A DNA stretch of 64,000 bases from a virus, in IMG/VR virus record IMGVR_UViG_3300028298_000007, positions 1-64,000 of that record. One strand, given 5' to 3'. Below, piece by piece: positions 2,983 to 47,435 of this stretch (positions are counted from its first letter, which is position 1; every line of letters begins with the position of its first letter). Both the position numbers and the translations under genes were made by a program. The notes beneath the pieces were generated by a model that saw only the letters and a program-made list of their open reading frames with translations, searched no databases and was not told the origin of the DNA.

Positions 2983-3001
2983 TGCATCGCAGAGATTAGG
3001 A

Positions 3002-3121
3002 GTGTTTTTCCAGTTCATAGAAACTTACGCCTGCCCGATATTGGATATTTCTATTATCATTACGATAATTTGGGCGGTAAATAAATTAACAAAAAGAAGT
3101 GAACGGAAGGCGGTGATTTAA
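3002..3121 (+). CDS. possible small membrane protein
   Basis: A GTG-started frame of 39 codons encodes one hydrophobic segment (ILDISIIITIIWAV) followed by a basic tail. AGGAG abuts the GTG directly, which is too close for good initiation. A start upstream in another frame plus a frameshift is also possible. Kept as a weak call because phage arms of this kind often carry single-pass miniproteins. Confidence 0.3.
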   Translation: MFFQFIETYACPILDISIIITIIWAVNKLTKRSERKAVI

Positions 3122-3122
3122 T

Positions 3123-3212
3123 ATGCGTTACCTATTATCTTTAATCGGATTTCCGGTTTGCTCGAGCTGTTCGCGCCGTAATTGTAAAGATTGCCCATTA
3201 GCAATAAGATAA
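3123..3212 (+). CDS. 29-residue zinc-knuckle-like miniprotein
   Basis: GGCGGTGA ends 5 bases before this ATG. The product contains CSSC and CKDC pairs separated by a few residues, a likely structural zinc site. No function is known. It overlaps the end of the preceding frame almost exactly, as if translationally coupled. Confidence 0.45.
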   Translation: MRYLLSLIGFPVCSSCSRRNCKDCPLAIR

Positions 3213-3245
3213 GCCTTTATTGGCTACATCTTTAGAAAGGTTAAT

Positions 3246-3296
3246 ATGACTCAAGACATGTTAGAGTTCTTATTTCCAGAGAGTTACCGGGATTAA
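3246..3296 (+). CDS. possible 16-residue leader-like ORF
   Basis: The micro-ORF MTQDMLEFLFPESYRD is preceded by AAAGG at good spacing. Its TAA stop (3294-3296) forms part of stem II of the hammerhead ribozyme that follows, so ribosomes ending here would melt that stem. It may act as a leader peptide rather than encode a functional protein. Confidence 0.3.
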   Translation: MTQDMLEFLFPESYRD

Positions 3297-3399
3297 ACGA
3301 AACATCGGAGATAATACTTGCACTTTGACCTTACCGAAGGTTATAAAAGGCAAGACACCTTTATCTCCGATGTCCGCTATTAAAGCGCTGATGAGTTTA
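3294..3399 (+). ncRNA. type II hammerhead ribozyme 1
   Basis: All hammerhead core elements are present in type II order. Stem II 5' strand is TAAAC (3294-3298). GAAA is at 3299-3302. Stem III is 12 perfect bp (3303-3314 with 3361-3372). The cleavage triplet is GUC (3372-3374), cut after C3374. Stem I is CGC/GCG (3375-3377, 3385-3387) with a 7-base loop. CTGATGA is at 3388-3394. Stem II 3' strand is GTTTA (3395-3399), pairing perfectly with TAAAC. The 46-base cap of stem III contains a further hairpin, ACCTT-ACCG-AAGGT. It would split the polycistronic message between 3296 and 3438. Confidence 0.85.
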
Positions 3400-3437
3400 T
3401 CTCTGGTCAGAAAACTTTTAAGAGAGGGGGTGAAAAG

Positions 3438-3629
3438 ATGAAAATCGTAATCGGAGAAGGCAGATTAAAACTTTCTGCAAAGCAGGCCACAGACGGAGTA
3501 ATCTTTTACAGGGTCTTAGCGCCTAACCTTAGAAGGATTATGCAGCATAAGAAAAGAGATTTATCTGTCGTAGGCACTTGGGTAGCTTACGAAGATATAA
3601 TCGTCTGGTTTAAGAAAGGAGATTTATAA
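3438..3629 (+). CDS. hypothetical protein
   Basis: This 63-residue basic protein is preceded by GAGAGGGGGTGAAAAG, a very strong ribosome site. It is the first cistron downstream of hammerhead 1, so its message would start with the cleaved 5'-OH end. No motif is recognised. Confidence 0.6.
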   Translation: MKIVIGEGRLKLSAKQATDGVIFYRVLAPNLRRIMQHKKRDLSVVGTWVAYEDIIVWFKKGDL

Positions 3630-3967
3630 TGGAAAGAGAATATTTCCACGCGACAGTGCAAAGAGTTTCTATTGAAGCAAAAGAAGTCCGCGAAGAAAAA
3701 ATCGCAAGAAGCGGTTTTCTTAATTTAAGAAAGACGATATTCGAGCAGATTCATTTTGAAGATGAGTATTTTATCTTCTGCAAACTCGACAGCACTAATG
3801 TCGTATTGAAGATCAAGACAACAAAAGAAATACTGGAACAGGCGAGAACAGGAGATTCAGTATCTGTTCATCTCAGATTTGATTTTGAATTTGCCTGTTA
3901 TCACTTTATCAAAATTAAAGAAGAAGAAAAGGTTATTCAGGTAGAAAGGAAAATTGTATGCGAATAA
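3629..3967 (+). CDS. hypothetical protein
   Basis: A 112-residue protein of alternating strands and charged segments, with no recognised domain. Its ATG overlaps the previous TAA (TAATG), indicating translational coupling. AAAGGAG lies inside the preceding gene. Confidence 0.65.
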   Translation: MEREYFHATVQRVSIEAKEVREEKIARSGFLNLRKTIFEQIHFEDEYFIFCKLDSTNVVLKIKTTKEILEQARTGDSVSVHLRFDFEFACYHFIKIKEEEKVIQVERKIVCE

Positions 3968-4194
3968 AACTTTTCGTAAAAGACAATAAGATTTGCTACT
4001 CCACAGGGAAGGGGAAGTGGACTGCGCTGCCAAGAGGTAGTGGCGATTTGACTTACCAGTTATCTCCAGCTGAAACAATCTTAGTGGTAAAACATGGCTG
4101 GATTTACGCAGGACAGATCGAAGGCCGGGATATGTCCGGTATAGGCGGACTTAAAACAATCACAGAGGTGATGAAACATGGAAAAGCTAAATAG
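3958..4194 (+). CDS. hypothetical protein
   Basis: A 78-residue protein with a Gly-rich middle (KGKWTALPRGSGDL). Its start overlaps the upstream gene by 10 bases, with GAAAGG upstream. Function unknown; tight packing supports it as a real cistron. Confidence 0.6.
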   Translation: MRIKLFVKDNKICYSTGKGKWTALPRGSGDLTYQLSPAETILVVKHGWIYAGQIEGRDMSGIGGLKTITEVMKHGKAK

Positions 4195-4333
4195 AGTTCA
4201 GATATACTTAAATTCTTTTGGCTACCCGAGATCTATTGTAAATCAATACAAAACAGGTTCAGATAATTACCGAGAGGAGGTGAAGATAAATGGCGAAGAA
4301 AAAAGGTTACAAAATAACAGCAAAAAATGTTGA
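4178..4333 (+). CDS. small hypothetical protein
   Basis: A 51-residue frame begins inside the end of the previous gene (GAGGTGATG upstream) and runs 44 bases into the next. The extensive overlap at both ends makes it uncertain. If real, it would be coupled to both neighbours. Confidence 0.35.
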   Translation: MEKLNRVQIYLNSFGYPRSIVNQYKTGSDNYREEVKINGEEKRLQNNSKKC

Positions 4334-4472
4334 GTATCTTATTTCGCAGTATATAAATGCTGACAGCGCCGAAGAAGCAAAGAGTATTTTCAAACAGGAT
4401 TTTGAAAATGGTCAAATAGGTGTAGGTGGTTCAGAAGTCCAGTTTCAGGAAGTAACAATAGTTAGGAGGTAA
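4290..4472 (+). CDS. hypothetical protein
   Basis: A 60-residue Lys-rich protein preceded by GAGAGGAGGTGA, among the best ribosome sites in the window. No domain is recognised. Confidence 0.6.
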   Translation: MAKKKGYKITAKNVEYLISQYINADSAEEAKSIFKQDFENGQIGVGGSEVQFQEVTIVRR

Positions 4473-4475
4473 AGA

Positions 4476-4745
4476 ATGTCTAAAATAACAGAAAAGCAAA
4501 TCGGAGTTGTCGGTGTTGACAGCGGAACCTTGCTTCTTGGAGATCCTTGTTACTGGTTATCTGATAAGGATTACGAAAAGGAAGTTTTGAACCCTCACTT
4601 CGATAGGTCAAGACAAATCTGCTACGACTTAGGGCACAAAGGTAAAGGCGTCCTGGTGTCAAGCGGATATGGAGACGGCTGTTATCCTGTTATCGCAAAG
4701 TTTCAAGATGGCAGAGTAAAAGAAGTTACAGTCAAATTCTTTTAA
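4476..4745 (+). CDS. DUF4241-like protein
   Basis: This 89-residue protein has the pattern VGVDSGTLLLGDPCYWL near the N-terminus and SGYGDGCYPV later. This GDP-CY and DGDG-CYPV pair recurs in DUF4241-like proteins of phages and bacteria. Biochemical role unknown. Preceded by TAGGAGGTAAAG. Confidence 0.6.
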   Translation: MSKITEKQIGVVGVDSGTLLLGDPCYWLSDKDYEKEVLNPHFDRSRQICYDLGHKGKGVLVSSGYGDGCYPVIAKFQDGRVKEVTVKFF

Positions 4746-4755
4746 GGAGGTTTAG

Positions 4756-5337
4756 ATGCCTAATTGGTGTGAAAATGATTTAAGAATTACAGGCTCAAAG
4801 AAAGAACTCAAGCGCTTTAAGGCCTTTGCCAAAGGAACAGAAGAAGATGAATTATTGTCTTGTGAAAAATTTATTCCTTATCCGGATAAGTTTAAGAAAC
4901 AAGACGAATTGGCAAATAAGAACGGAAAGTTAAGACAGGATTTAATTGATAAGTTGATTAAAAAAGGAACCCCTGAAGACAAAGCAAGAGAAAAAGCGTT
5001 TAAGGATTTTCCGGCTATCCCAGACGGATTTAATCAAGGCGGTTACGACTGGTGCGTAAAAAACTGGGGAACGAAGTGGGGCTTCTGCGATATTCATCTT
5101 GAAGAAGAAAACCTTAGCGATAAAGAAGATAAGTATAATGAATTTCTTTATTCCTTTAACACTGCCTGGAGCCCGGCAACACCTGTTATACAGAAAATGG
5201 GGGAGATGTTTCCGCTGCTTGAATTTGATCTGCGCTATTTTGAACAAGGCGCTGGATTTAACGGAATTTTCTGGATGAAAGATGGTAAAGTAGAACAGGA
5301 TAAGACAGGAGAGTATTTTGGTAATAGGGGAGGGTAA
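4756..5337 (+). CDS. Api92/YubB ferredoxin-like family protein (DUF1281)
   Basis: This 193-residue protein begins MPNWCENDLRITG, the signature N-terminus of the Api92-like/DUF1281 family found in phages and plasmids. Further family features are YDWCVKNWGTKW and FNTAWSPATPVI in the middle and an aromatic C-terminal domain. The fold is ferredoxin-like; function unknown. The start is fixed by AAGGAGG at 4744-4750. Confidence 0.75.
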   Translation: MPNWCENDLRITGSKKELKRFKAFAKGTEEDELLSCEKFIPYPDKFKKQDELANKNGKLRQDLIDKLIKKGTPEDKAREKAFKDFPAIPDGFNQGGYDWCVKNWGTKWGFCDIHLEEENLSDKEDKYNEFLYSFNTAWSPATPVIQKMGEMFPLLEFDLRYFEQGAGFNGIFWMKDGKVEQDKTGEYFGNRGG

Positions 5338-11639: not shown

Positions 11640-13256
11640 ATGTTTGTTTATACTGACACCGATTTTGCAATCGTAAAATGCGAATTTAAGGAAAAAGAAT
11701 TAGTAAAGGCAATAGGCGATTTTAAATTTGACAAAGTACACTCCACCTGGTTATTTCCGCTGCGTAAACTTGTTGACATCATTGATAACCTGAATATCGG
11801 TTATACTCCCGAAACAAAAATTATCTACGACCATCTAGTTCAAGAAAAACAGAAATATCATTCTCTAATTAATAAGGCAGATCGCATTAAGCAAGGCGAA
11901 GGCGAATGGGATATTTTAGATCAAAATAAAATATCCCTTTTGACTCAATGTTATCATCACCAAAAACAGGCGATCCTTTTAGGCACATTATTCGATTCCT
12001 ATGCTTTCTTCATGGAAACCGGAACAGGTAAAACATTAGTCGCGATAAAATTAATTGATTTCTGGAAAGTGCCGGCAATGGTAATATGCCCGCTATCCAC
12101 AATAGAAACGGTATGGAAGAAAGAAATCGAAAAATGGTCTAACTTAAATTCAGTTATACTATGGCAGAATTTAAAGGCCTTCGATTACGATTATAATGTT
12201 TACCTTATTAATTACGAACAATTTAAAATCCTATCCAGTAAAACCGATATAACAAAAAGAATACAATGCTTGATTATTGATGAAAGTTCTAAATTAAAAA
12301 ATCCTAAATCCCAGATTACCAAGACCATACTTAAATATAAAAATTCAATTCCACATAGGCTATGCTTAACCGGAACTCCTGCTCCGAACAATTTGCTTGA
12401 ATACCATAGCCAGATGTCTTTTATAAATTCCGATTTGCTTGGCGATAATTACTATCGCTTCCGCAACACCTTCTTTTATTCCTGCGGTTACGGCGGTTAT
12501 TTATACCGGCCGATGAAAGGCGCCCAAGAAGCAATCATTGATAGGGTTAGCCGGCAGGCATTCAGTATCCGTAAAGATGACTGTTTGGACCTACCGGATC
12601 GCGTATATGAAACGCGCCTAGTTTATATGGATGATGTCCAGCAGAAGGCCTACGATATGATGAGGAAAGAAAACATATTGGAATTCGGCGATAGCGTAAC
12701 CTTGGCCGCGAATGAACTGGCTAAAATTATGAAACTGCGCCAGGTTACTAGCGGTTTTACAATTAATAATAAAGGAATCCCGGTACTTATTTCAGATACT
12801 AAGATCAATGCGCTCAAGGACCTATTGGAAGAAATACCCGAAGACAAGCAAGTTATAATCTGGCTGAATTTTCATTTTGAAATCAACCGATTAAAGGAAG
12901 AATTTAAGGATACTGCTTGCACATTATACGGCGATATGCCCCAGAAAGAAAAAACAAAAAGCATAGAGGATTTCCAAATAGGAAAATACCGCATATTGCT
13001 AGCGCATCCTTTATCCGGCGGCCTAGGGCTTACTTTTGTCAACTGCTCATACATGATTTGGTTTTCACTTTCTTATTCTTCAGAACAACATTCACAGGCA
13101 AACGACAGAAATTATCGCATAGGACAAAAAAATAAATGCACTTATTTTTATCTTTTAACAAAGAATTCTATCGATGAAATAATATATAAAGTCTTAACAC
13201 ATAAGATCAATATTATGGAAGAATGTTTAAATTTACTAAAAGGCATAAATGTTTAA
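11640..13256 (+). CDS. SNF2-family DNA helicase/translocase
   Basis: This is a 538-residue superfamily 2 ATPase. The Walker A motif is ETGTGKT (126-132), motif II is IIDESS (212-217, a DEAH variant) and motif III is LTGTPAPN (243-250). In the C-terminal RecA-like domain motif VI reads NDRNYRIGQ. Phage SNF2 proteins remodel or branch-migrate DNA in replication and recombination. The last ~70 codons are more AT-rich than the rest and end just at the HNH gene. A second copy of the C-terminal coding sequence lies after that gene, so the present 3' end was probably imported. Confidence 0.9.
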   Translation: MFVYTDTDFAIVKCEFKEKELVKAIGDFKFDKVHSTWLFPLRKLVDIIDNLNIGYTPETKIIYDHLVQEKQKYHSLINKADRIKQGEGEWDILDQNKISLLTQCYHHQKQAILLGTLFDSYAFFMETGTGKTLVAIKLIDFWKVPAMVICPLSTIETVWKKEIEKWSNLNSVILWQNLKAFDYDYNVYLINYEQFKILSSKTDITKRIQCLIIDESSKLKNPKSQITKTILKYKNSIPHRLCLTGTPAPNNLLEYHSQMSFINSDLLGDNYYRFRNTFFYSCGYGGYLYRPMKGAQEAIIDRVSRQAFSIRKDDCLDLPDRVYETRLVYMDDVQQKAYDMMRKENILEFGDSVTLAANELAKIMKLRQVTSGFTINNKGIPVLISDTKINALKDLLEEIPEDKQVIIWLNFHFEINRLKEEFKDTACTLYGDMPQKEKTKSIEDFQIGKYRILLAHPLSGGLGLTFVNCSYMIWFSLSYSSEQHSQANDRNYRIGQKNKCTYFYLLTKNSIDEIIYKVLTHKINIMEECLNLLKGINV

Positions 13257-13743
13257 TCAAAAAAAATATCTTAAAAAATATAGTAAGACATATCGTATAA
13301 AATTTAAAGATAAAATTCGTAAGAAACAACAAAAATATTATCTTAATAAGAAAAAAAGTATAAATAAAAGGAATAAAAAATACTGGAAGAAAAATAGGGA
13401 CAAATTAATTTTAAATAAGAAAAAAGATCGTAATAGAGTTTTAAAAACTTGGGAAGGTTATCTCCCTAAAAAAACTAATTGTCCAATTTGTAAAAAAGAG
13501 ATATTTTTTAATAAAAGAAATAAAAAAAATGCTATTCATTTTGACCATAAAGATAATAAAAAGATTTTAATTAAAGAAGGGCCTACTACTTGGTTAATGT
13601 CTCATGTAAGAAATTCTACTAATCAAAAAATCTGGAAATTATGTAAATTCGGGATGCTTTGTGGAAGATGCAATGGATATCTTCCTACCAAAAGCAGAAA
13701 ACAATTTGTAATGAGAATAATTAAATATGTTTTCAATCTATAA
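13249..13743 (+). CDS. HNH/endonuclease VII-like homing endonuclease
   Basis: A 164-residue, extremely Lys-rich protein. Residues 1-65 are repeated basic-aromatic helices like those before endonuclease VII domains in phages. The C-terminal part has CPIC, then HFDHKDNK and GMLCGRCNGYLP, a zinc-stabilised beta-beta-alpha metal nuclease. It overlaps the helicase end by 8 bases and is far more AT-rich than the surroundings. It sits between the helicase and a displaced helicase C-terminus, the classic arrangement of an intronless homing gene that restores its target. Confidence 0.8.
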   Translation: MFNQKKYLKKYSKTYRIKFKDKIRKKQQKYYLNKKKSINKRNKKYWKKNRDKLILNKKKDRNRVLKTWEGYLPKKTNCPICKKEIFFNKRNKKNAIHFDHKDNKKILIKEGPTTWLMSHVRNSTNQKIWKLCKFGMLCGRCNGYLPTKSRKQFVMRIIKYVFNL

Positions 13744-13813
13744 GGTGCTGGATAAAAAAGCAGATTTAATGAACGCATGCCTAGACATGCTGAAAGGAAA
13801 AAATGCTGCCTGA
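13739..13813 (+). pseudogene. displaced C-terminus of the SNF2 helicase
   Basis: The frame 13739-13813 reads YKVLDKKADLMNACLDMLKG plus KNAA and a stop. It aligns without gaps to the helicase end (YKVLTHKINIMEECLNLLKG plus INV). Its stop overlaps the start of the next gene (13803), as expected of the original operon. It has no start codon and is a remnant left when the HNH unit inserted. Confidence 0.85.
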
Positions 13814-14234
13814 TTACAGAGATATAAGATCAAGAATTAAAGAAGAACCTATTTGGTATGATGATAACGGTGTACCTCGCTATGATAAATTCAGCCCTGA
13901 TTTAGTCTCTAGTATTTATGCACAAGAAGCGCTTTTGGTGAAAATTAAGTGCCAAGATTGTCATAGTGTATTTTTTGTAGGCGTATGCTATTCGGATATG
14001 GAAAAAATATTCAATCGCCACGCGGCATCTTACGAAGAACATATTAAAGATTATTTAAATGCAAAAGATAAAAATAAGCGTTATTTTCCTTTCCATTATG
14101 GTGATCCACCGGCTCATGGATGTGTAGGGGACACAATGAACTGCGAGGATATTCAGATTATAGAATTTTGGAAAAAAGAAAAGTTTGTATGGAAACGAAA
14201 ACCTGAATACGAAATAAAAGCAGAGGAAGAATAA
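13803..14234 (+). CDS. conserved phage hypothetical protein
   Basis: A 143-residue protein starting LPDYRDIRSRIKEEPIWYDDNG, with a Cys pair (CQDC) and a late HGCVGDTMNCEDI, suggesting a zinc site. The pattern recalls hypothetical proteins found beside phage helicases. GAAAGGAAAAA precedes it, inside the helicase remnant. Confidence 0.6.
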   Translation: MLPDYRDIRSRIKEEPIWYDDNGVPRYDKFSPDLVSSIYAQEALLVKIKCQDCHSVFFVGVCYSDMEKIFNRHAASYEEHIKDYLNAKDKNKRYFPFHYGDPPAHGCVGDTMNCEDIQIIEFWKKEKFVWKRKPEYEIKAEEE

Positions 14235-24786: not shown

Positions 24787-24954
24787 ATGGAAGTAAAGAA
24801 CAACGCTCAAAAACTTTATCGACGAGGAATTTCTAAGTATGAAATCGCTAAGAAAACAGGCGTTTCTTGGAATACTGTTCATTTTTGGGTGCTTGGAATT
24901 TATGATCCCAAACCAGAACATAATAAGAAATTAAAAGGATTATTGGATGCCTAG
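24787..24954 (+). CDS. helix-turn-helix regulator
   Basis: A 55-residue protein that is essentially one HTH: KLYRRGISKYEIAKKTGVSWNTVHFWVLG, typical of HTH_23/resolvase-like or small Cro-like regulators. ATAGGAGG fixes the start at 24787. It lies directly downstream of a promoter overlapped by a perfect palindrome and is likely autoregulated. It could be a lysis-lysogeny or timing regulator, or belong to the HNH gene that follows. Confidence 0.75.
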   Translation: MEVKNNAQKLYRRGISKYEIAKKTGVSWNTVHFWVLGIYDPKPEHNKKLKGLLDA

Positions 24955-25402
24955 ATATATTTGTAATGGATGTAAAAGTTATTTTTTTGCTGATGAAGAA
25001 AAAGAAGATTTTACAATCGGAGAACAGTTTTTCTGTTCTTATTGTTATCCAAAAGTAAGAATATGTGGGGTATGCGGGAAATTAAAAGTATTTAAAAGAG
25101 AAATTAAAACTGCGATAGGAATTTGTGATAAATGTAAAAAAACTACTCAATCATTTCCTAACGCTTGGTTAACATTAAGATTTATTACGTTTAAAAGAGA
25201 TGAGTTTAAATGTAGATATTGTGGAAGAAGTCCATTACAAGATAAAGAAGTAAAATTACATTGCGAACATATAACTCCTAAAGTTAAAGGAGGACAAAAC
25301 ATATTAGATAATTTAGTTACTTCTTGCGGTGAATGCAATATAGGCAAGTTGGATGTCTTATTAGAACAATACCAAATTGATTTAATTAAAAATAGAAAAT
25401 AA
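24947..25402 (+). CDS. HNH endonuclease with N-terminal zinc fingers
   Basis: This 151-residue protein starts with three CxxC pairs (CNGC, CSYC, CGVC/CDKC) and ends in a McrA-type HNH: CRYCGRSPL, LHCEHITPKVKGGQNILDNLVTSCGECN. It cuts DNA with a single metal and may be a homing nuclease or packaging-linked HNH. The ATG overlaps the HTH gene. It is the last rightward gene and ends at the shared terminator. Confidence 0.85.
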   Translation: MPRYICNGCKSYFFADEEKEDFTIGEQFFCSYCYPKVRICGVCGKLKVFKREIKTAIGICDKCKKTTQSFPNAWLTLRFITFKRDEFKCRYCGRSPLQDKEVKLHCEHITPKVKGGQNILDNLVTSCGECNIGKLDVLLEQYQIDLIKNRK

Positions 25403-38684: not shown

Positions 38685-39932
38685 CTAAACTGCGCTTTCT
38701 ACATAGACATCAAATATCTTGAAGAACGCGCCTGAAACACCTCCGAACTCAAGCGACTTAATACCGCTTTCAGTAGCAGTTATTTCTACCTTGACATATC
38801 TACCATTCTTAGGCGTACAAGCTACTTCTTTCCAAACAGTAGTATCTTGCCATTCCGAAATAGCAAGGGCGACTGCAGTACCCCAATTGCCATTAGTTTC
38901 GCTGACATAGATATTAATATTGGTAGGATCGCAGCTTAAATTACCGCCTGAGCGTCCTCTGACTTGCTGTACATTATAGATATTGCCTAAGTCGATAACA
39001 AACTCATGAGTTTCATTAACCGTATGTTTCCATACATTCGTACCGGCCAAAGCATTTTCAGGAGTTGTATCTCCGCCGTCATCGCCGCAGTGAGATTCGA
39101 GATATGTATTATCTATCCCGAGCCATCCGGTTGTAGTAGAACTGCTCGAAGAAGAACTAGACGAACTGCTTGACGATGAACTGCTCGAACTAGACGAACT
39201 GCTTGAACTTAATGAACTGCTCGAACTAGACGAACTGCTTGAACTTAATGAGCTTGAGCTAGATGAACTGCTAGAGCTGCTCGAAGAACTTGAACTGCTT
39301 GAGCTGCTCGAACTAGACGAACTGCTTGAACTTAATGAGCTTGAGCTAGATGAACTGCTAGAGCTACTCGAAGAACTTGAACTCGAAGAACTTGAACTCG
39401 AAGAACTTGAACTAGATGAACTTCTAGAACTGCTCGAAGAACTTGAACTGCTTGATTTACTTGAACTAGATGAACTGCTAGAACTTCTGGAACTGCTGGA
39501 ACTACTGGAACTGAATGAACTGCTGGAGCTACTTGAAGAACTAGAACTGCTAGAACTGCTCGAAGAACTAGACGAACTTGATCCAGTTCCAGTTACAGTT
39601 ACATTAAGTGCATGCCAATAAGTTCCATCACACCAGAACTCAGCATTTTCATATTTTCCTATCTGCGCCGTATCATAACTTCCGCCGCCGCCGTTAAAAC
39701 CAGCCGTAACAAAAACATAGCCCTGGCTAGTAGTGGTTACCTGTATATTGACACCTTTAAGTTTAGCGCTCGCGGCGGGTAAAGTTAACTTGATATTTCC
39801 GGTAGTTAACTTTATAAAAAGATAACCACTCTCCAGAATATCATCTTCTGTAAGAGTATAGTCTGCGGTCTTTGTGAGAGTTGTTCCTCTCTTGTTTGCA
39901 ACAGAATATTTATATCTAGTAGGTTTTGGCAT
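38685..39932 (-). CDS. virion decoration/fibre protein: N-domain, polyserine linker, F5/8C-like domain
   Basis: This is a 415-residue, three-part protein. Residues 1-116 are a beta domain homologous to the next upstream gene (39956-40300). Residues 118-265 are nearly pure Ser. Residues 266-415 look like a discoidin (F5/8 type C) sugar-binding fold: GIDNTYLESHCGDDGG, FVIDLGNIYNVQQVRGRSGG, YVKVEITATESG. The layout suggests a capsid- or tail-anchored protein presenting a carbohydrate-binding head on a long serine stalk. Confidence 0.75.
   Translation of the reverse strand: MPKPTRYKYSVANKRGTTLTKTADYTLTEDDILESGYLFIKLTTGNIKLTLPAASAKLKGVNIQVTTTSQGYVFVTAGFNGGGGSYDTAQIGKYENAEFWCDGTYWHALNVTVTGTGSSSSSSSSSSSSSSSSSSSSSSFSSSSSSSSRSSSSSSSSSKSSSSSSSSSSRSSSSSSSSSSSSSSSSSSSSSSSSSSSSSLSSSSSSSSSSSSSSSSSSSSSSSSSSSSLSSSSSSSSSSSLSSSSSSSSSSSSSSSSSSSSSSSSTTTGWLGIDNTYLESHCGDDGGDTTPENALAGTNVWKHTVNETHEFVIDLGNIYNVQQVRGRSGGNLSCDPTNINIYVSETNGNWGTAVALAISEWQDTTVWKEVACTPKNGRYVKVEITATESGIKSLEFGGVSGAFFKIFDVYVESAV
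39138..39581 (-). repeat. polyserine-encoding tract
   Basis: Encodes residues 118-265 of the decoration/fibre protein; short repeats of mixed Ser codons with scattered L, R, K and F codons. Confidence 0.85.
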
Positions 39933-39955
39933 ATAGGTATCCTCCTTTTATCTGG

Positions 39956-40300
39956 TTAGCTTGCGCCTACAGATTGAGATAAGGCATACCAATATGTTCC
40001 GTCGCACCAAAATTCTACGGTGTTATAGGCTCCGATTGTTACCGTATCGTAGCTATCACCACCACCACCAAAACCGGCGGATACATCGACTTTACCTGAA
40101 GCATTATTCGATGTAACATATACGCTAACTCCTTTTAAGGCAGAACTTGCTACCGGCAAAGTTAATGTATATGCGCCATTAATTTTAAAGAATTGTCCGA
40201 CTCTTAAAATATCTGACTCTGTAATACTATATGTTTCTGCCTTAGTAGTGGCAGTACCTCTTGCATTTGCAACACCATATTTATATCTAGAAAGTTTCAT
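39956..40300 (-). CDS. decoration-like beta protein (paralogue of the N-domain of 38685-39932)
   Basis: A 114-residue protein matching the N-domain of its downstream neighbour throughout: RYKYGVANARGT, FFKINGAYTLTLP, GFGGGGDSYDT and VEFWCDGTYWYAL. The pair arose by duplication; only the neighbour gained the Ser linker and sugar-binding domain. Its place directly after the capsid gene fits a head decoration protein. The start at 40300 is set by AAGGAGG. Confidence 0.7.
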   Translation of the reverse strand: MKLSRYKYGVANARGTATTKAETYSITESDILRVGQFFKINGAYTLTLPVASSALKGVSVYVTSNNASGKVDVSAGFGGGGDSYDTVTIGAYNTVEFWCDGTYWYALSQSVGAS

Positions 40301-40344
40301 TAAATACCTCCTTAACATTAAGCATTTTTCAGCTTAACAGCTGT

Positions 40345-43372: not shown

Positions 43373-45022
43373 TTATTTTTTTAATGTCCAAAAGTCAGAG
43401 TTAATACTCTCTCTTTTTGCGATAAATATTCCTTTAAGTTTATCGCCTGAAAACTCTATTGTTTTCTCTAACTCTGTTGACTCTAAAATAGATACTTTAC
43501 CTTTATCTAAATTTCTTTCCCAAAGTGGCATAGATGTTGGGTTAAGTTGACTTAAAGGTGGCAAAAATGCTATTACTTTAGATTCACTATATTTATCAAA
43601 TTTCGATAGTTTTATATAAAAAACTGATTCTTTAAAGTTTTCATTTAACAAATCTTTATCTAAAATCATATCAATACCTAAATCGGTAGCAATAATAAAA
43701 TCTTCTATCTTAGGAACTGACTTATTCCACCTAGTATAGTAAGCAAATTCGCCAAATTTCCTTTCGGCTTCTTTCATCTTAATATCAAACTTATATCCGC
43801 GGTAATCAATACCGCTGTCTTTTAATGCTTTTAACGTATCAAAAGCTTGCTGGCCTCCATCAGGTTGAACTATAATATATTTATATTCAGTAAATTTATC
43901 AAAAAGTTCTAACGCAAAAGGAGATAACTTTTCCGGTTGGAAGTTGGTAGTCCCAGCCTCAATCATTTTCTTTACGCAATTATAAAATGATTGTTTTAAC
44001 TGCTCAAAATCCTGTTTTACTTCTTCCCCGCGCCTTTTAGCGGCATATAGTTTAAGGATTTGCTTTAATTCTTCCTGATGATCTTTACTTTCCTCAAGTC
44101 TTATATCGGACTGATTGATAAAATCCAAGACCTCTATCATTTCTGCATTATCAAAACAAGATGTCGATAGATACGAACTATTCTGCTGTATAGGATAATT
44201 CGTAACTACCAATTCATTCTTTCTGGTCATATGGCCTGAACTAGGTGCCGCTAGATTATATTGAGAAAGTATCTTGCGGTTGTATTTTGCCTCTTTCCAA
44301 CCATCACAAACTTCGTAAGTAACCATCCACTTACCGGGAATAGTCTTAGTGAAGGATTCAAATTCTTCCTGCGTAGGACACCATTTCCAATTCATCTTTG
44401 CGCTAGGATATGGCGGATCAAGGAAAGTAAAAGATTCTGCGGTAGAATATTTTTTAACAAAATCCTTATAGTCCATATTTTCTATAGTTACGCCGGCCAA
44501 TCTTTCTTTTATCTTGGCCAGTCGCGTAGTTAATTTCATTACCTCGCCTTCGGCCCTATCATCGTAGGAGCGCATTTCGCCGGCATCGCTTGCTGCCTTG
44601 ATATAGACATAGCGGTAGAACTGGTAAACTGGGTCTTTATTTGTCGGACTTTCTTTATATTCACCGAGTAATTTATTAAATGTTTCCTTAGACGTCTTCC
44701 AGTCCATTTTATTCAATTCTTCTATCTGCTGGTCAGTGATATTCTGCATGAACTTAAAACACGAAACAATCTCAGAATCCTTGTCATTAATAAACTCTTC
44801 CGATCCTTTATTCTTCCTGAATAATACGCTTCCGCCACCTATAAATGGTTCGACATACCTTTTGTGTTCAGGAAACATTGATATTAACTTTCCAGCCACG
44901 AAGAACTTTCCACCGGGGGAGCCAAAAGCAGGTTTTACGCCTTCATTAATTTTCTCATTAGAGATTAAGTCTATTTTATCCAAAGAAAAATCTTCTAATA
45001 ACGGTAGTAAAAAATTATTCAT
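43373..45022 (-). CDS. Dam-like N6-adenine methyltransferase with extra C-terminal domain
   Basis: This is a 549-residue protein. Residues 35-290 match D12-class Dam enzymes: FVAGKLISMFPEH, YVEPFIGGGSVLF (motif I), and FLDPPYPSAK (motif IV DPPY). The C-terminal 250 residues have no recognised fold: helical to about 370, then alpha/beta with YKYIIVQPDGGQQAF and YYTRWNKSVPKIEDFIIATDLG. A methylase between portal and capsid genes, where head morphogenesis genes usually sit, is odd. The start at 45022 is fixed by AGGAGG and overlaps the portal stop. Confidence 0.8.
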   Translation of the reverse strand: MNNFLLPLLEDFSLDKIDLISNEKINEGVKPAFGSPGGKFFVAGKLISMFPEHKRYVEPFIGGGSVLFRKNKGSEEFINDKDSEIVSCFKFMQNITDQQIEELNKMDWKTSKETFNKLLGEYKESPTNKDPVYQFYRYVYIKAASDAGEMRSYDDRAEGEVMKLTTRLAKIKERLAGVTIENMDYKDFVKKYSTAESFTFLDPPYPSAKMNWKWCPTQEEFESFTKTIPGKWMVTYEVCDGWKEAKYNRKILSQYNLAAPSSGHMTRKNELVVTNYPIQQNSSYLSTSCFDNAEMIEVLDFINQSDIRLEESKDHQEELKQILKLYAAKRRGEEVKQDFEQLKQSFYNCVKKMIEAGTTNFQPEKLSPFALELFDKFTEYKYIIVQPDGGQQAFDTLKALKDSGIDYRGYKFDIKMKEAERKFGEFAYYTRWNKSVPKIEDFIIATDLGIDMILDKDLLNENFKESVFYIKLSKFDKYSESKVIAFLPPLSQLNPTSMPLWERNLDKGKVSILESTELEKTIEFSGDKLKGIFIAKRESINSDFWTLKK

Positions 45023-47435
45023 TAATAGCCTCCTCTGTTTCTTCCTGTTCATTTTCCATATCAACACCTAACTGATTTATTACCGCATTGATTACAGTCT
45101 TTGCCTGTTTGTCTGTAATCCATTTTTTATCGGAAGCCTGGACAAGTCCTCCGACTAATCCATTCATAGCCTCAGCAACGCCTTTATTATCCCGAGATAC
45201 TATAGGAGAAGGTATTACGGTAAAACTTCTATCAACATCTTTCTTCAATGTACCGGCAATTATAGCCTGATCTATAGCAAAATTAAACATATGCTTAATC
45301 ATAAATTTTACTTTTTTCTGTTTTGATTTTAAATTTTTTAAAGTCGGAAGTCCCATTTCCATCGCAGTTTGAAGTTGTATTGCGATTTTACCATTTCTAC
45401 GAGTAATCATAAATTGATAAGGCATACTAAAACAATAAACCTTACCATTGTATTGTTCTTTTTGAATATTAGATTCGTATCGTTTTCCTCTGTTATTAAC
45501 TTGTATTCTATTTCTTAAATCTCTTTCAATGATATTGCTACCACTAATAATGTTCCATTTAAACTTTCCTTTTATGGAAATGGAAGTCCTTGAAGAATAT
45601 CCAAGAAGTAAACAAATAATTTGAAAATCATCCTTTAATTGATTTGAATTTGTAGAATAATTGAAACAATTTCTGCCTTTTCTTTTATCAAATGAACCAT
45701 CTCCTGCCATCATAGATTTAAAAAGAATTTCTAAGTATGGTTTATCTAACTGCAATATATCTTTCGGTATTCTTTTTTCTTTACTTACACAACCAATATT
45801 TTCTTTAAGATAGTGCCAAAGAGATTTATTACTAATATTAAAAACTGTAACACCTTTACCATTATCAGATTCATTGGCCTGAAATCCAATTTTTTTCAGT
45901 AAGTTTCGTATAATTTTAACATTATATTCTTTTTTTTGAGCTATTCTGACACAAAATCTATTTTTAGCATTATTAAGATATCCTTCTGAAAGATACCAAC
46001 CAAGAAAATCTACCCAATCTTTCATCACGAATTTTCTTGGACTATCTTTTATTCTTGATTGAATATCATAAGAAATATAAGGTAATTCAAAATATTCTTG
46101 TTTTTTACCAATCCAATTTTTTGCGCCTTCTTTGATATAAAATGTTTTATATGTTATATCTTTTGCCTGAATAATCTCAAATTTTCTTCCTTTATGCGCT
46201 TCTTTAATCCACATTCTATGTTCAGGCGTTACTAAAATATCTGTTCTTGTATTAGTAAAATGATACATTTCTCCTTTATAATCATAAAGATATATATTGC
46301 CTTTAGGTTTACAGAATTCAATTCTATCTTTATCAGGATTAAAAGTAGCTAATTTTTCTCCTTTTTTAATTTCCCAATATTTTTTCCATCCATTTTCAGT
46401 TAAAGTTTCTGTATCTTCACTATAACAGGCGCGAGTAGTGCGGCTTCCTTCGGCAAACCAATGTTCGGGATATCCTGCTCCACCTAATATCTGATTTTTG
46501 AATAGCCTTGCTTCTTCTGAAGCGTCAGCCCCTTCTAACTTCGGAGTTTCAGATTTCCATTTAATCTTATCATTATGCGCTCTTATTGAACCTGGCCTAG
46601 GAGTAGCCAAAGTCTTGACAAATTCCTGTAATTCTTCTTTGGACATCCCTTCGCACTCAATATCCCATATAAAAGTATTTATCAAAAATGCTCTCTCAAG
46701 CCTAGCAAAAAGAAATTGGTCATAGCCATCCAGCCAATCAGCTAAGCGCAATAACGTACTTCTACCGCGTGTAGCAGAACTTACTTTATTAATGGTAAAA
46801 TAGAAACAATCTCCGACTAATTTTCCGTAAGATTTTGATTTTAGATTTTTATCGATATTAATAATGCTTAATTCTCTTTCAACTTGACCAGTTGGTTTTC
46901 TCCATATAAGTGTTTTATTGAGTTTAGCGTTATAAGGATCTTTCTTTATTTTTAATATTGTCTTAGGATCCATATAACTTAATTTAACAGCGCCATCAGC
47001 TGAATTAACCCAGACCGGTAAACAAAGTTCTCCGAAAAGATAAAGTTCAACAACATTAATATTCATTTCTTCATCAAGATTATTATCCGGATCATTCCAA
47101 AAATTATCTAATACTTCCTTTACGTCCTTATCTTTAGCTGTAAAAGTAAAACCATCTCCGATTACAAAATCTTCGATGATTTCAATTATACGGCCGGCCA
47201 TAGGGTTGCTATCATATAGGTAAAACGCTATATCCTGCATTCTGCGCTGCGTAAGCAGATTAAGGTCCCTATGCTGGTTAGTAGTCAATGAACGCCATAA
47301 TGCGTCATCACTTGATCCGCCTACCATTGGATATGATTCGTCTATCTTGCGTAAAATCTCAACATGCCTTTTTTCGCGTTCCTTGAAATCTACTACAACA
47401 TTTTTTGATTCATCTGCTTTTACTTTTTTTTTCAT
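45015..47435 (-). CDS. portal protein interrupted by an intein
   Basis: An 806-codon gene. Extein parts are residues 1-336 and 690-806 (453 residues joined), typical of portals: SYPMVGGSSDDALWRSLTT, MAGRIIEIIEDFVIGDGF, TRGRSTLLRLADWLDGYDQFLF, and QILGGAGYPEHWFAEGSRTTRA joined to TAMEMGLPTLKN. The junction site is a conserved portal motif, a common place for inteins. Twelve portals form the DNA gate of the head. Order TerS-TerL-portal confirms it. Confidence 0.85.
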   Translation of the reverse strand: MKKKVKADESKNVVVDFKEREKRHVEILRKIDESYPMVGGSSDDALWRSLTTNQHRDLNLLTQRRMQDIAFYLYDSNPMAGRIIEIIEDFVIGDGFTFTAKDKDVKEVLDNFWNDPDNNLDEEMNINVVELYLFGELCLPVWVNSADGAVKLSYMDPKTILKIKKDPYNAKLNKTLIWRKPTGQVERELSIINIDKNLKSKSYGKLVGDCFYFTINKVSSATRGRSTLLRLADWLDGYDQFLFARLERAFLINTFIWDIECEGMSKEELQEFVKTLATPRPGSIRAHNDKIKWKSETPKLEGADASEEARLFKNQILGGAGYPEHWFAEGSRTTRACYSEDTETLTENGWKKYWEIKKGEKLATFNPDKDRIEFCKPKGNIYLYDYKGEMYHFTNTRTDILVTPEHRMWIKEAHKGRKFEIIQAKDITYKTFYIKEGAKNWIGKKQEYFELPYISYDIQSRIKDSPRKFVMKDWVDFLGWYLSEGYLNNAKNRFCVRIAQKKEYNVKIIRNLLKKIGFQANESDNGKGVTVFNISNKSLWHYLKENIGCVSKEKRIPKDILQLDKPYLEILFKSMMAGDGSFDKRKGRNCFNYSTNSNQLKDDFQIICLLLGYSSRTSISIKGKFKWNIISGSNIIERDLRNRIQVNNRGKRYESNIQKEQYNGKVYCFSMPYQFMITRRNGKIAIQLQTAMEMGLPTLKNLKSKQKKVKFMIKHMFNFAIDQAIIAGTLKKDVDRSFTVIPSPIVSRDNKGVAEAMNGLVGGLVQASDKKWITDKQAKTVINAVINQLGVDMENEQEETEEAINE
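45369..46427 (-). mobile_element. intein with LAGLIDADG homing endonuclease
   Basis: Residues 337-689 of the portal frame. It begins Cys337 (CYSEDTETLTENGW, block A), with DILVTPEHRMW (block B), LAGLIDADG motifs FLGWYLSEGYL (477-487) and LFKSMMAGDGSF (571-582), and block F GKVYCFSMPYQFMITRRNGKIAI. The last two residues are Leu688-Gln689 before Thr690, where His-Asn or Gly-Asn is normal. Gln-ended inteins are known but rare. DNA here is more AT-rich than the exteins. Confidence 0.88.

Follow-up and report, generated by a model that had tools for sequence, protein, structure and literature searches.

A homing-type HNH gene has probably invaded the 3' end of an SNF2-type phage helicase gene, carrying with it the C-terminal tail of a donor helicase. 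The window analysed here (64,000 nucleotides) covers most of a 64,751-base IMG/VR virus record, and the setting is therefore viral and not mitochondrial DNA. Two helicase tails with different affinities and base composition were found on the two sides of the HNH-like gene, and the relatives of this helicase have single tails. The features of the locus are as follows.

11640-13256, plus strand: SNF2-type phage helicase (phrog_62), 538 aa, with a native core up to about 13060-13181
13062-13181, plus strand: possible co-converted helicase stretch to the left of the tail in use, indicated by a GC3 change point, with an uncertain left edge
13182-13256, plus strand: C-terminal tail in use, apparently foreign, IYKVLTHKINIMEECLNLLKGINV and stop, with a GC content of 0.18 (first 60 bases) and a nucleotide identity of 55% with the stranded tail
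13249-13743, plus strand: lysine-rich HNH/endonuclease-VII-like gene, 164 aa, with its stop codon inside native tail sequence
13727-13813, plus strand: mini-ORF of 28 codons, MFSIYKVLDKK...KNAA and stop, with an ATG from the 3' end of the HNH gene, in frame with the stranded tail
13736-13813, plus strand: stranded, apparently native helicase tail, IYKVLDKKADLMNACLDMLKGKNAA and stop, recognized by its alignment score, identity to relatives and GC content of 0.38
13803-14234, plus strand: next gene of the operon, 143 aa (phrog_27600), whose start codon shares bases with the stop of the native helicase end

Two helicase C-termini at one locus

The helicase matches the Pfam domains SNF2-rel_dom (3.5e-30) and Helicase_C (3.4e-14), as well as phrog_62 (1.8e-116). 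Its tail in use comprises 24 residues, with codons from position 13182 and the stop at 13254-13256, and the start of the HNH gene at 13249 overlaps this stop (ATGTTTAA). The second copy lies downstream of the HNH gene, and its stop TGA is contained in the start of the gene that follows (ATGCTGCCTGA at 13803). Both ends are located where the original prediction had placed them. They align over 23 residues with a BLOSUM62 score of 67, including 11 identities among the first 20 residues, whereas 3,000 shuffles of the tail produced a mean score of 32 and a maximum of 54. The tail duplication is far beyond chance.

The original prediction had also called the downstream frame untranslated, but this description is not secure, since the frame contains an ATG at 13727 that opens a stretch of 28 codons. 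The chance expectation for an in-frame ATG upstream of the stranded tail is about 50%. The tail may be translated from this ATG, which would keep the next gene coupled.

A scan for repeated gene ends in the window and 67 fetched loci revealed the helicase tail as the sole nuclease-linked case among the top hits. The same scan returned one stronger match, which is unrelated and lies on the minus strand of the window at 39594-40318. There, the final 40 or so residues of one ORF (AGFGGGGDSYDTVTIGAYNTVEFWCDGTYWYALSQSV) recur downstream with high similarity, in what resembles a structural or tail module present more than once.

Affinity of the two tails to related helicases

Scans of IMG/VR identified eight distinct relatives of the helicase with about 52-67% identity (L001, L002, L009, L041, L042, L043, L044 and L052). 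L052 was taken together with the contigs L053-L062, as no differences were seen between their helicase genes in the comparisons made. No HNH gene is present at the helicase end in any of the eight relatives, none of which is close to this phage. The original prediction was to be given up if relatives without the HNH gene had both tails; this arrangement was looked for and not seen, with a single tail at that place in 8 of the 8 genomes. The scans did not recover an uninterrupted allele from the same phage, and the exact native-tail DNA had no match elsewhere in IMG/VR. A scan with the C-terminal region of the helicase added no close relatives, and the bacterial genomes searched gave one distant match only.

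The stranded tail shares 73% nucleotide identity over 20 codons with L042, 68% with L041, 67% with L001 and 65% with L009, compared to 55% with the tail in use. At the protein level, it is closer to six of seven relatives and shows an identity tie with the seventh. L052 is the exception in the protein comparison (11 versus 12 of 20 residues), and the tails of L044 and L052 show no greater closeness to the stranded copy (ties or exceptions). Bootstrapping of the 20 residues put the probability of the stranded tail being equally near to the tail in use and to its nearest relatives at about 1%, with the short length compared (20 codons) limiting tree-like evidence. These comparisons support the stranded copy as the native end and the tail in use as the foreign one.

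The two tails differ at 10, 4 and 15 of 22 first, second and third codon positions, respectively (chi-square p about 0.04). This third-position bias resembles that between two coding lineages under selection and is unlike the pattern of a decaying duplicate. Since the differences are mostly at third codon positions, the tails resemble alleles of two viruses rather than the products of duplication and decay.

Base composition and edges of the putative transferred tract

The original prediction had placed an AT-rich transferred block at 13060-13743. Its composition was borne out, as no other 600 bases of the window have a GC content as low as those at 13126-13725 (0.218), which cover the tail in use and the HNH gene, but the block has no sharp start and begins between about 13060 and 13182. 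The last 117 bases of the helicase gene are at the 0.3 percentile of GC content for the window, whereas the stranded tail (54th percentile) corresponds to the genome average. The GC contents of the tails in use and stranded are 0.18 and 0.37, respectively. AT-rich tails are also present in some relatives (GC 0.20 in L001 and 0.22 in L044, 60 bases), and thus composition by itself would not decide the origin of the tail. The drop in GC content at the end of the gene is 0.127 in this phage, twice that of any relative (0.06 or less).

The left edge of the tract is uncertain: it appears to lie at 13182 at the latest, where the tails begin to correspond, and perhaps near 13060. The best GC3 change point is at 13062 (permutation p 0.0275), and co-conversion may therefore have reached back to about 13060 within the helicase. 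A switch of the nearest relative at residue 464 (p about 0.003 against the adjacent core) was rejected as proof of the left edge, with a stronger switch present at residues 174-232. The right edge is at about 13735-13741, where the last codons of the HNH gene (CTA TAA) merge with the ATC TAT AAG of the native sequence.

The HNH-like protein

The 164-aa gene product matches phrog_2914 endonuclease VII (1.3e-4) and the Pfam family Endonuclease_7 with an E-value of 0.0073 and 16.6 bits, which is under the cut-off of 23.6; the NCBIfam profiles gave no match. The protein contains 25% lysine and the motifs CPIC at position 78, FDHKD at 98 and LCGRCN at 137, forming a CxxC...DH...CxxCN pattern. A comparison by eye with the DHHRN set of F-CphI (CX2-4C, DHxH, R, CX2C-N) showed that CPIC, D-H and LCGRCN are present, with the second His replaced by Asp (FDHKD) and the Arg by Phe. 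Two of the five residues therefore appear to be missing, which leaves this protein outside the DHHRN group. In the AlphaFold model, only the long N-terminal helix of about 60 residues is confident, and the catalytic half has pLDDT values below 50. We assign the gene, with moderate confidence, as encoding a putative endonuclease. No relatives or donor of this protein were found in IMG/VR using back-translated peptides and a degenerate DNA pattern, and tblastn against 50,697 phages also returned no relatives.

Homing-type genes in the helicase operon and elsewhere

In L044 (IMGVR_UViG_3300005613_000113, positions 3001-5175), the same SNF2 helicase is interrupted midway through its gene by a different lysine-rich HNH gene (3807-4379), which divides it into two ORFs. 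The upstream part ends with ...FINDTLLG and a stop, and the second part restarts with M-SNFYKYRN..., with no residues lost and with the restart ATG overlapping the 3' end of the HNH gene. No Rfam intron was matched at this insertion, and no relatives of the L044 HNH protein were found in phages. A third lysine-rich HNH gene (311 aa) is located downstream in the same operon of L001 (L001:6868-7803). It encodes lysine-rich repeats of about 14 residues (YxxKNKxKI), and the gene that follows begins before its 3' end. Thus, as judged from the L044 and L001 genes, the helicase operon appears to have been invaded repeatedly. The HNH stops in the window (13737-13743) and in L044 (4372-4379) are both CTA TAA read out of frame from the helicase sequence TCTATAAR, although these two instances are too few to call TCTATAAR a target motif.

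The window also contains a further free-standing HNH gene at 24947-25402 on the plus strand (Pfam HNH 8.1e-10). On the minus strand, a portal-like phage protein at 45015-47435 is interrupted by an intein-like block (LAGLIDADG_3 1.3e-9), whose AT-rich part at 45596-46195 is the second-lowest GC stretch in the window.

Alternative explanations

Two copies of a gene end could also arise without any donor if the helicase 3' end was doubled on insertion of the HNH gene, by target-site duplication or slippage, and the copies then drifted. The copies are indeed in register and nearly equal in length, but at 55% nucleotide identity they are as distant as the tails of different viruses. Moreover, the stranded copy, which should have been free of selection, is the conserved one and is closer to the nearest relatives, whereas drift would not readily account for the dominance of third-position differences (10/4/15) or the sharp GC contrast. 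We consider such a local duplication improbable. An even smaller likelihood is given to a group I or group II intron, or another splicing element, housing the HNH gene, with the downstream tail as the true last exon. HNH genes often reside in phage introns, and the stranded tail has remained intact and kept its frame; however, an Rfam search of the region and the whole window gave no intron match, the insert consists almost wholly of the tail and the HNH ORF with no space for an intron core outside coding sequence, and the helicase tail is already complete.

Ordinary mosaic recombination, in which an illegitimate crossover brought in the helicase 3' end of another phage with the HNH gene as a mere passenger, is the least improbable of these alternatives, but is still unlikely. 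Phage genomes are mosaic, nuclease genes are common at the boundaries of genetic exchange (PMC10448857), and the catalytic assignment of the HNH protein is weak. Against this explanation, the edges of the insert are at matching codons of the same gene, its only contents are a replacement tail and one HNH gene, and another HNH gene has entered the same helicase in L044. Invasion by a homing-type gene that brought a foreign tail and displaced the native end, as originally predicted, is supported by the native-like stranded tail and by the AT-rich composition shared by the tail in use and the HNH gene.

Proposed mechanism of the invasion

In the donor virus, the HNH gene would have been free-standing behind the helicase gene, with its start overlapping the helicase stop. 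The recipient helicase gene would then have been broken near the IYK codons, putatively by the HNH protein, and repaired from the donor. On the left side, repair may have proceeded by homologous recombination inside the helicase, and on the right side by a join at or near ATCTATAA, possibly via microhomology. The predicted product is a hybrid helicase with a donor C-terminus of 24 (possibly about 65) residues, followed by the HNH gene and the recipient tail, which would remain in frame and overlap the start of the next gene. The replacement tail would keep the helicase whole, and the foreign tail together with the interrupted native copy would remove the target. With native helicase sequence now on either side, the cassette could home as a unit into empty helicase genes. 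The cutting, the repair route, the immunity and the present mobility are inferred.

Sequence matches to SNF2 proteins with solved structures extend into the replaced end, to profile position 523-529 of 534. Because this end includes the last SNF2-conserved part, its loss would probably harm the enzyme. In an AlphaFold model of the helicase (seven sequences), the C-terminal tail is poorly resolved.

Comparison with known homing systems

Mobile ORFs carrying a C-terminus (mORFs) have been described in fungal mitochondria, including atp6 of Allomyces macrogynus, atp6, atp9, cox2 and nad3 of Glomus, atp9 of Rhizopus, and cox2 of Mortierella (PMC3630166). In the Glomus mORFs, the native copy shows 91-98% and the inserted copy 64-81% nucleotide identity to close relatives (PMC3630166). 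The phage locus shares with them a (here putative) endonuclease ORF near the gene end, an apparently foreign C-terminus restoring the gene and a native C-terminus downstream. As in the fungal systems, the native downstream copy matches the relatives better (here the four nearest, L042, L041, L001 and L009, in both protein and DNA), and there are relatives without the ORF that have one C-terminus (eight here). It differs from the fungal mORFs in belonging to a bacterial virus, in having an HNH/endonuclease-VII-like gene instead of LAGLIDADG or GIY-YIG, in targeting a DNA helicase, in its overlapping start and stop codons, and in being known from sequence alone. The match in architecture and relatives suggests that the arrangement works like the fungal mORFs in a different setting. 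No phage or bacterial example of a carried C-terminus was found in the open-licence literature searched.

Free-standing phage homing genes are known to split their host genes, as shown for mobE in Aeh1 nrdA, mobA in T4 gene 39/60 and a seg-like gene in gene 43 (PMC2988022; PMC5009743). The present locus resembles these systems in that a free-standing, here putative, endonuclease gene has entered a conserved gene of replication in the absence of an intron, and the overlap of the HNH start with the upstream stop is as in nrdA/mobE. In contrast to their two-chain products, the helicase stays one chain and a replacement tail is carried, whereas L044 represents the splitting version. F-CphI is a free-standing cyanophage homing endonuclease with an endonuclease VII motif (PMC6083498). 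Both it and the HNH-like protein are products of free-standing phage genes and have a C-terminal zinc and DH...N motif of the endonuclease VII kind, but the second His and the Arg of DHHRN are unmatched here, and F-CphI works with an intron, of which there is no sign at this locus.

A broader reading, which we put forward tentatively and hold to be somewhat less likely to be right than wrong, is that one lysine-rich HNH type repeatedly targets the helicase, with the damage solved either by a split and a restart codon (L044) or by a carried C-terminus (the window). The chain of overlapping stops and starts from the helicase through the HNH gene and the mini-ORF to the next gene would keep translation coupled, and insertion would be tied to TCTATAAR, which supplies the HNH stop at both sites. 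If true, this would represent a gene-repairing homing cassette in bacterial viruses.

By carrying a coding end, a homing gene could invade essential genes with no need for an intron or intein, and hybrid proteins between viruses would result. The arrangement also provides a search signature for phage genomes, a gene end repeated just past a nuclease gene, in which the stranded tail would be missed by annotation pipelines. A clear phage case would show that this mechanism arises wherever homing genes attack conserved genes.
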